From positions 62,001 to 126,000 of the forward strand of contig CALJOJ010000007.1 of assembly GCA_937981665.1 (NCBI GenBank): a stretch of 64,000 nt of DNA. The letters run 5' to 3'. The notes under the pieces were generated by a model. That model was not told where the DNA came from. It saw only the letters and a program-made list of their open reading frames with translations, and searched no databases. Positions 5,898-8,900 of the stretch are shown one piece after another. Position numbers and translations under genes: made by a program. Each line of letters starts with the position of its first letter. Positions within the stretch are counted from its first letter, which is position 1. Source of the DNA: an uncultured Rubritalea sp. (GTDB lineage Bacteria > Verrucomicrobiota > Verrucomicrobiia > Verrucomicrobiales > Akkermansiaceae).

Positions 5898-6089
5898 TTA
5901 TGCTACGCATCTATCATGCTCATCTGACGGAGAGCCTCTATTGTTAGAAAAGGCGTAGAGGAATTGAGCATTAAGATTAGCTATACTGAACTCGCGTAAA
6001 ACGCCGGTGAGACCATCGAAGCTTTTACGCATATCGACTGGCGGAAGGATGACTCGGATTTTTAATGCAGATGAAGATAAATTAATCAT
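5898..6089 (-). pseudogene. Remnant of IS66-family orf2 (TnpB)
   Basis: The first ~45 codons match the start of the IS66 orf2 protein: an N-terminal MINLSS, a strand ending in RVILPP, then the hallmark VDMRKSFDGL. After FSNNR the frame departs from the family (the expected RRR-K-LYWD continuation is missing) and stops after 63 codons, about half the normal ~115. No orf1 or the large IS66 transposase (tnpC) could be recognised nearby. Interpreted as a truncated, frameshifted insertion-sequence relic. Confidence 0.72.
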
Positions 6090-6179: not shown

Positions 6180-6213
6180 AAAAAGACCCGTCACCCAATC
6201 GCGTAACAGGCCT
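6180..6213 (-). terminator. Rho-independent terminator after infC
   Basis: On the minus strand an 11-bp stem (arms 6203-6213 and 6184-6194, with several G-U pairs) encloses an ~8-base loop and is followed by a run of five T. It lies 40 bases past the infC stop and has the right polarity. It marks the end of the thrS-infC unit before any rpmI/rplT could be read. Confidence 0.6.
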
Positions 6214-6252
6214 TTAAAAATAGATTACTAGTAGAGAGTATATAGAATAAAA

Positions 6253-6897
6253 TTAGTCCTCAACTACTGCTTCGGTTTCTTCCTCTTCTACATCGTCTGC
6301 TTTATCATCAGAGTCATCATACTCTTCATCATCATGAGCGGTAAATTTACGCACACGCTTTTCTGCAGGTAATGGTGAAAGAAGCATGTTCACGTTACGA
6401 CCGGCCAATCTTGGCGGCTGGTCTACTGCTGCCATGCCAGACATGTCAGTGAGCACACGCTTAAGTACTTCCACTCCGAGCTCTTTGTGTGCATTCTCAC
6501 GACCACGGAACATAAGTCCCACTTTCACCTTATTGCCCTCATCGAGGAACTTCTCGATGCGTGAACACTTAAGGTTATAATCATGCTCTTCCGTACGCAC
6601 ACGGAATTTGATTTCTTTGACTTTCGGTGCAGCTTTCTTGTTGTCCTTCTTGAGTTTGGACATCTGATACTTGTGCTTACCGTAATCACAAATTTTACAT
6701 ACTGGAGGGTCAGACTTAGCAGTAATTTCTACTAGATCCAGACCTAACGCCTTCGCTTTCTGCTGTGCTTCTTGTGAACTCATGACACCCAACTGGTCTC
6801 CATTGTCCATGACAACACGTACCTTTGGTGCTCTGATGTATTGATTCACGCGAGTCATTTCGCGACGTTTTCTGAATGGCTTCTTTGGCTTAGCTAT
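6253..6897 (-). CDS. infC: Translation initiation factor IF-3, probable AUA start
   Basis: IF-3 binds the 30S subunit and checks initiator tRNA and start codon. The N-domain begins with RVNQYIRAPKVRVV and LGVMSSQEA; the linker and C-domain follow with KEIKFRVRTEEHDY and FRGRENAHKELG. An acidic tail rich in D/E (about the last 35 residues) is extra relative to the E. coli protein. Start choice: a perfect AGGAGG lies 8 bases before an AUA codon, giving I-A-K-P-K-K-P and 214 residues. A GTG at 6937-6939 would put that Shine-Dalgarno inside the gene, and a downstream ATG has no good site. A rare start fits known infC autoregulation (AUU in E. coli). Not followed by rpmI-rplT as is usual. Confidence 0.95.
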   Translation of the reverse strand: MAKPKKPFRKRREMTRVNQYIRAPKVRVVMDNGDQLGVMSSQEAQQKAKALGLDLVEITAKSDPPVCKICDYGKHKYQMSKLKKDNKKAAPKVKEIKFRVRTEEHDYNLKCSRIEKFLDEGNKVKVGLMFRGRENAHKELGVEVLKRVLTDMSGMAAVDQPPRLAGRNVNMLLSPLPAEKRVRKFTAHDDEEYDDSDDKADDVEEEETEAVVED

Positions 6898-6911
6898 GGT
6901 CTTATCCTCCT
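6895..6911 (-). promoter_or_regulatory. infC ribosome-binding site with AUA start codon
   Basis: AGGAGG at 6906-6911 (minus strand), an 8-base spacer, and ATA at 6895-6897 followed by GCT-AAG-CCA. This is the strongest Shine-Dalgarno I noticed in a window where most genes have weak ones, which argues that the AUA is the real initiation codon. Confidence 0.7.
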
Positions 6912-6958
6912 GTATTATTATTTTTTTATGGTTCCTCACACACTAGTAGAACTAATGT

Positions 6959-7022: not shown

Positions 7023-8900
7023 TTAGAGCGATTTCTCGCTAATTTCTTTTGATATATTAGAAACAAATTCATCGAGTGAAACAGTGCCGAGATCTTGTCT
7101 ATCTCGGTGTCGGACAGAAACTGAGTTAGTCTCCGCTTCCTGCCCGCCAATGACTAACATGTATGGCACTCTGCCCAATCTTGCAAGTCGAATCTTTGCG
7201 CCCAGTTTTTCAGATGCTCGGTCCACACTGACGCGCACGCCAATGTCTGCAAGGCGCTTAGCAGCAGCCTCACCATGTTCGATAAATTTATCTGAAAGCG
7301 GCAGTACCCTCACCTGCTCTGGAGCAAGCCATGTAGGGAACTTACCTTCAAAATGCTCTATCAGCAGACCGACGAATCTCTCAAGTGAGCCAAATGGCGC
7401 ACGGTGAATCATCACTGGACGGTGCGACTTGTTATCCTTACCTATATAACTGAGATCAAATCTCTCAGGTAGGTTAAAATCTAACTGAACAGTTCCTAAC
7501 TGCCAATCACGGCCGATCACATCCTTCACTACGAAGTCAATCTTAGGTCCATAAAATGCAGCCTCACCGAGTTCCACAGTATAGTCAGCTCCTAGCTTCT
7601 CAACAGCCGTCTTAAGTGATGCCTCAGCCTTATCCCAGACATCGCGCTCACCTACGTACTTATCTGAATCTGGATCAGAAAACGAAAGTCTCACACGGTA
7701 ATCATTCATACCGAGAGTTTTGAGGACCTTCTCAACTAGTGCAAGACAGCCCTGAATCTCGTCATCCACCTGCTCAGGAAGACAGAAAAGATGAGCATCG
7801 TCCTGGGTGAACCCACGTACACGAGTCATTCCACCCAGCTCACCAGATTGCTCCCAGCGGTAAACCGTTCCAAATTCAGCTAACCGCACAGGTAGGTCAC
7901 GGTAACTTCTGTGCTCACTACTATAAATCTTAATATGGTGCGGACAGTTCATCGGTCTGAGCATATAACCCTCGATGTCACCGGTCTTTAATCCATTCGT
8001 AAGCGCACCACATGGGGCATTCTCATCCGCTAACTTCTCAAGCGCTGAGCGCTCAGGAATAGCAGCATACTGACTATCTTCATAGTACGGGAAATGACCA
8101 GAAGTACGGTAAAGATCTAGCTTACCAATGTGTGGAGTGAACACCTGGCTATAACCCTGCTTATCAAGCTCAGCAGTGATGAAATCCTGTAACTGACGTC
8201 TCACCAATGCTCCTTTGGGTTTCCATAAAATCAACCCTTGTCCCACCATCTCATCAATGTGGAAAAGCCCTAACTCACGGCCTAACCTCCTGTGGTCACG
8301 CTTCTTAGCCTCCTCTAATTTCTCAAGGTGATCATTCAGCATAGTAGCATTCTTAAAACACGTACCATAGACACGCTGAAGTGACTCACGTTCTTTATCT
8401 CCTTTATAGAACGCACTGGCAACACTGAGTAACTTGTGTGCCTTGCAGTTACCTGTGCGTCCCACATGAGGACCTGCACAGAGATCCCAAAAATCATTAT
8501 TCTTATAAACTGAAATTTCCTCACCTTCAGGAATGCTACTAAGAAGATCCACCTTAAATTTACTCTCTGTATTACGTTCACTGATACCACCTAGTCTTCC
8601 GCTCACCGCTAGCTCGAGTGCCTCTTCACGAGATACCACCATTCTCTCAAACGGAGAGTTCTCCTTAACCACCTTCTTCATCTCAGCCTCGATCTTAGGG
8701 AAATCATCCGGGCTAAGACGGTGCGCCATTTCTAGATCATAATAAAAACCACTCTCCACAGGCGGCCCACCAGCAAGCTGGGCATCCGGCCATAGACGAA
8801 GAATCGCCGTCGCCAAAACGTGAGCACAACTATGACGCAACCGGTCCAAGTCACTCATATCGTGACGTTCCTCAAGTGATTTTCTTTCTTTATCTGACAT
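7023..8900 (-). CDS. thrS: Threonyl-tRNA synthetase lacking the N-terminal TGS domain
   Basis: Class II synthetase charging tRNA-Thr. The editing (N2) domain is complete, with H23-x3-H27 in HSCAH and C141/H145 in CAGPH. The catalytic core carries the zinc ligands C319 (MNCPHH), H370 (DDAH) and H499 (IHRAP), with motif 2 around YRWEQSGE. The HGTP anticodon-binding domain occupies about 525-620. The ~60-residue TGS domain of the E. coli enzyme is absent, and an in-frame TAG 18 bases upstream of the ATG rules out a longer start. An insertion of roughly 27 residues (about 281-308) precedes MNCP, so total length (625) still looks normal. Upstream of and co-directional with infC. Confidence 0.96.
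   Translation of the reverse strand: MSDKERKSLEERHDMSDLDRLRHSCAHVLATAILRLWPDAQLAGGPPVESGFYYDLEMAHRLSPDDFPKIEAEMKKVVKENSPFERMVVSREEALELAVSGRLGGISERNTESKFKVDLLSSIPEGEEISVYKNNDFWDLCAGPHVGRTGNCKAHKLLSVASAFYKGDKERESLQRVYGTCFKNATMLNDHLEKLEEAKKRDHRRLGRELGLFHIDEMVGQGLILWKPKGALVRRQLQDFITAELDKQGYSQVFTPHIGKLDLYRTSGHFPYYEDSQYAAIPERSALEKLADENAPCGALTNGLKTGDIEGYMLRPMNCPHHIKIYSSEHRSYRDLPVRLAEFGTVYRWEQSGELGGMTRVRGFTQDDAHLFCLPEQVDDEIQGCLALVEKVLKTLGMNDYRVRLSFSDPDSDKYVGERDVWDKAEASLKTAVEKLGADYTVELGEAAFYGPKIDFVVKDVIGRDWQLGTVQLDFNLPERFDLSYIGKDNKSHRPVMIHRAPFGSLERFVGLLIEHFEGKFPTWLAPEQVRVLPLSDKFIEHGEAAAKRLADIGVRVSVDRASEKLGAKIRLARLGRVPYMLVIGGQEAETNSVSVRHRDRQDLGTVSLDEFVSNISKEISEKSL

Follow-up and report, generated by a model that had tools for sequence, protein, structure and literature searches.

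Initiation of infC, the gene encoding IF-3, at AUU, AUC or AUA has already been documented in other phyla. AUU is the start in both Escherichia coli and Bacillus subtilis (PMC1805508), and the factor was found in E. coli to repress its own start, a form of autocontrol that is lost when the codon is changed to AUG, as recounted in a report on Streptomyces (PMC5472188). In Streptomyces itself the infC start is ATC, and such starts are often misannotated (PMC5472188), while the Listeria monocytogenes gene begins with ATT, in a species where a reporter ranked ATG > ATA > ATT (PMC13068326). In Staphylococcus aureus, retapamulin ribosome profiling (Ribo-Ret) demonstrated that infC initiates at AUA; reporters for three other genes, carrying AUA or AUU starts, yielded about 10% of the AUG level, with one of them reaching up to 30% in rich medium (PMC13009471).

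The infC gene described here occupies 6253..6897 on the minus strand of the window (the whole stretch of DNA that was analysed, 64,000 nucleotides), and comprises 214 codons plus a stop when read from an ATA at 6895..6897. On that strand an AGGAGG Shine-Dalgarno sequence (6906..6911) is followed by the 8-base spacer ATAAGACC, the ATA, and then GCT AAG CCA, and the frame is open from the ATA down to the stop at 6253. The product is a full-length IF-3 containing both domains (Pfam IF3_N, 2.7e-27; IF3_C, 2.8e-32), and can be aligned with the E. coli and Thermus proteins of solved complexes. The locus shares with its S. aureus counterpart the gene, the AUA codon, a strong extended Shine-Dalgarno sequence and a proposed autoregulation, and differs from it in phylum and in the nature of the evidence, which is profiling there and comparison only here (PMC13009471). 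The Streptomyces gene likewise has an AUN start, in that case ATC (PMC5472188), and the L. monocytogenes start is likewise fixed at a non-canonical codon, ATT (PMC13068326), both in other phyla. The window gene thus joins these documented cases as a well-supported addition; papers on infC starts in Verrucomicrobiota were sought, and none was found in the part of the literature that was searched.

In E. coli, thrS lies upstream of infC, and infC, rpmI and rplT form one unit. The window resembles that arrangement in its AUN start and in the presence of thrS (threonyl-tRNA synthetase, by Pfam) upstream on the same strand, at 7023..8900 (minus), and differs from it in the use of AUA rather than AUU and in the location of rplT, which is found on another contig of the window genome (G000:C10:47110-47424) and lies 1.5 Mb from infC in the congener G005. 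Since rplT is elsewhere, and since infC is followed at its 3' side by a terminator-like hairpin of 13 pairs with a T-rich tail (6182..6215, minus strand), the E. coli-type infC-rpmI-rplT arrangement is absent. The infC leader is unstructured (folding z of 0.06 against shuffles), and a regulatory hairpin over the start was rejected because the leader folds no better than shuffled sequence.

IF-3 was searched for in 57 relatives and the corresponding loci were fetched; the genus set consists of 12 genomes, including that of the window, from the genus that holds Rubritalea profundi. AGGAGG-N8-ATA-GC is common to all 12, R. profundi SAORIC-165 among them. The ATA is invariant, and column conservation, which is 43-47% at positions -60 to -31, is 100% over the six bases of the Shine-Dalgarno sequence. 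ATA is fixed as the start even though it is scarce among the internal isoleucine codons of the same infC genes, which comprise 49 ATC, 23 ATT and only 3 ATA (3/75, or 4%). The original prediction had described the sequence around the start correctly, and its proposal that infC initiates at AUA behind the Shine-Dalgarno sequence is borne out by these 12 genomes and by the rejection of other starts; the comparison that it had suggested, of whether ATA, ATT or ATC behind AGGAGG is conserved in relatives, gave a clearly positive answer. Judged from sequence comparison, the infC start is almost certainly the AUA at 6897.

The string by itself adds nothing to that assignment. AGGAGG-N8-ATA occurs once in the window against 0.57 occurrences expected from shuffles, and alone is therefore no evidence, and AGGAGG is no commoner in the window than chance would have it (20 found against 33 expected); as read from the aligned loci, it is position and conservation that raise the infC site above chance. 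Shine-Dalgarno use was also scanned in 42 window ORFs of at least 200 aa, at ATG, GTG or TTG codons within 40 codons of the first start, these ORFs being taken mechanically, such that some may not be genes. None of the 42 displayed AGGAGG before such a codon, a single one had 5 contiguous Shine-Dalgarno bases, and 31 lacked even 4; a full Shine-Dalgarno sequence is thus unusual in this window. Given the scarcity of matches of at least 5 bases among these ORFs, the lineage may use Shine-Dalgarno sequences sparingly, which, if true, would make the infC site special. A 16S rRNA gene, sought for its anti-Shine-Dalgarno sequence by family search and by pattern, was found neither in the window genome nor in nine congeners.

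A comparison across the phylum covered 211 infC loci. At the 93 loci with a strong Shine-Dalgarno sequence (at least 5 contiguous bases), the best-placed codon was ATC in 32, ATT in 29, ATA in 23, ATG in 4, CTG in 3, and TTG and GTG in one each, so that ATA, ATC or ATT is indicated at 84 of them; about 17 loci, whose N-termini were long or ambiguous, were given no automatic start label. At 67 of the 211 loci, the stretch from the upstream stop to the conserved domain contains no ATG, GTG or TTG at all. Across the wider family and the phylum, one and the same position is filled interchangeably by ATA, ATC or ATT, and the original suggestion of AUA 'in this lineage', which holds for the genus, was therefore too narrow; it was also less new than implied, given the S. 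aureus case (PMC13009471). These results extend the AUN-start rule for infC to Verrucomicrobiota with strong comparative support, and imply that gene callers limited to ATG, GTG and TTG will miscall the infC start in most of the phylum. At five Chthoniobacterales-like loci (L078, L171, L181, L182, L187), the sole candidate placed by a Shine-Dalgarno sequence is a CTG with GGAG 11-12 bases upstream, and a CTG start is possible there on sequence grounds.

On a fast single-protein tree of IF-3, the 138 rows with non-canonical and the 53 with canonical starts require 6 changes, of which at least 4 are forced by well-supported branches, a number that is approximate because the tree has weak forks. 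In an Akkermansia-like genus, g3 (L058-L071, L037), GTG is the only infC start that fits, and has no clear Shine-Dalgarno sequence; this start, which contrasts with the AUN codons used elsewhere in the family, seems to represent a natural loss of the non-canonical codon. An ATG start, often as TTG-ATG, is found in a further, mostly Opitutales-like set (L083, L086, L088-L092, L094-L103, L194, L196, L201, L217). The existence of such relatives indicates that a non-canonical infC start is not indispensable, and these sister lineages offer a natural setting in which to test whether control of IF-3 depends on the codon. Four metagenome-assembled genomes titled 'Akkermansia muciniphila' (L142, L153, L167, L172) carry infC from other Verrucomicrobiota lineages, and those titles look like loose naming.

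Natural variants of the G-C pairs of initiator tRNA occur in mycoplasmas and rhizobia, and the selection of the three pairs by IF3 is a feature of E. coli that is not strictly required for codon discrimination. The three pairs are highly conserved in all domains, according to a review (PMC7949028). The initiator tRNA of the window genome was located at G000:C26:27622-27640 (L220), with those of relatives within L218-L231. In all of these the anticodon stem reads A29-U41, G30-C40, G31-C39, such that two of the three conserved pairs are kept and the first is replaced by A29-U41; the C1xA72 mismatch is kept in the window genome and its congeners. A pattern search of 155 phylum genomes, in which any base was allowed at 29 and 41, matched in 142, and A29 and U41 were present in every initiator tRNA among the matches listed, except for three weak two-mismatch hits. 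Five g3 genomes, checked separately, have A29-U41 as well. This tRNA may be of more interest to specialists than the infC start itself.

For the window gene, the only reading that fits is that the initiator tRNA, aided by the strong Shine-Dalgarno sequence, initiates at AUA. In the mechanism proposed, that tRNA would start translation at AUA 6897, and the strong, unstructured Shine-Dalgarno sequence would compensate for a weak codon-anticodon match. IF-3 would in turn destabilise initiation complexes on codons other than AUG, GUG and UUG, and for that reason rising IF-3 would most likely repress its own mRNA, in a homeostatic loop similar to that operating on AUU in E. coli. As the leader is unstructured, control is likely to be exerted at the codon itself. 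Autoregulation of the window gene is here argued by analogy; the statement as a whole, translation from AUA together with control by IF-3, is considered probable.

Its most serious competitor accepts AUA as the start and holds that the codon only keeps IF-3 low, with no feedback in this lineage. That account draws on the S. aureus reporters, in which AUA and AUU simply give about a tenth of the AUG yield (PMC13009471), on the relatives in which canonical starts have taken over, and on an initiator tRNA that is unlike that of E. coli at its three G-C pairs. Set against it are the conservation of IF-3 with both domains and the discrimination of IF3 against non-canonical starts, which was shown in E. 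coli and is supported in Streptomyces (PMC5472188); the account is judged unlikely, at roughly one chance in five. A broader reading appears more doubtful still: that infC of Verrucomicrobiota was ancestrally AUN behind a strong Shine-Dalgarno sequence and changed several times to AUG or GUG, that, with an initiator tRNA lacking the first G-C pair throughout the phylum, start discrimination by IF-3 may follow rules other than those of E. coli, and that canonical-start lineages would control IF-3 by another route.

Initiation at AUA must also be weighed against starts at other codons of the same frame. An ATG at codon 14 (6856..6858, minus strand), a possible miscall, would yield a protein of 201 aa that leaves both Pfam domains intact, with the ATA merely part of the leader, and it is found at the same place in 11 of the 12 congeners. 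This ATG has no Shine-Dalgarno sequence, however, is TTA in the congener L013, and is absent from other family members (L019, L026, L032, L035). In seven close congeners, moreover, codons 2-13 vary in 1, 4 and 9 of the 12 columns for the first, second and third codon position, respectively, and their pN/pS is 0.18 in the infC frame, compared with 6.5 and 0.59 in the alternative frames, a pattern by which these codons are read as translated. Because they are under protein-coding constraint, the ATG at 6858 was rejected as the main start, a role for which it is now very improbable, and it may serve as a minor second one.

Upstream of the ATA, the GTG at 6937..6939 (minus strand) is, as the original prediction had noted, the sole in-frame ATG, GTG or TTG; a TAG at -48 closes the frame, and a gene caller could pick the GTG. 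In 8 of the 12 congeners an in-frame stop lies within 18 bases of the ATA (at 15-18 bases; TAG in seven, in each of which it overlaps the Shine-Dalgarno sequence, and TAA in one), and in the remaining 4 in-frame stops are found at -36 to -48; 11 of the 12 have no upstream ATG, GTG or TTG, and only the window genome has an intervening GTG. Although that GTG is the first such codon in the open frame, translation of a 228-aa IF-3 from it has next to no probability, since it has no counterpart in 11 congeners, in-frame stops intervene, the leader is not conserved, and an extended protein thus cannot be the conserved product. Conservation of the GTG frame at the protein level is thereby excluded, and the span originally given, 6253-6939, proved to be that of the GTG-extended ORF rather than of the gene, 6253-6897.

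Directly after infC, a short ORF at 5898-6089 (minus strand) displays a sub-threshold match to IS66 TnpB (5.9e-05), and is probably a transposon remnant.
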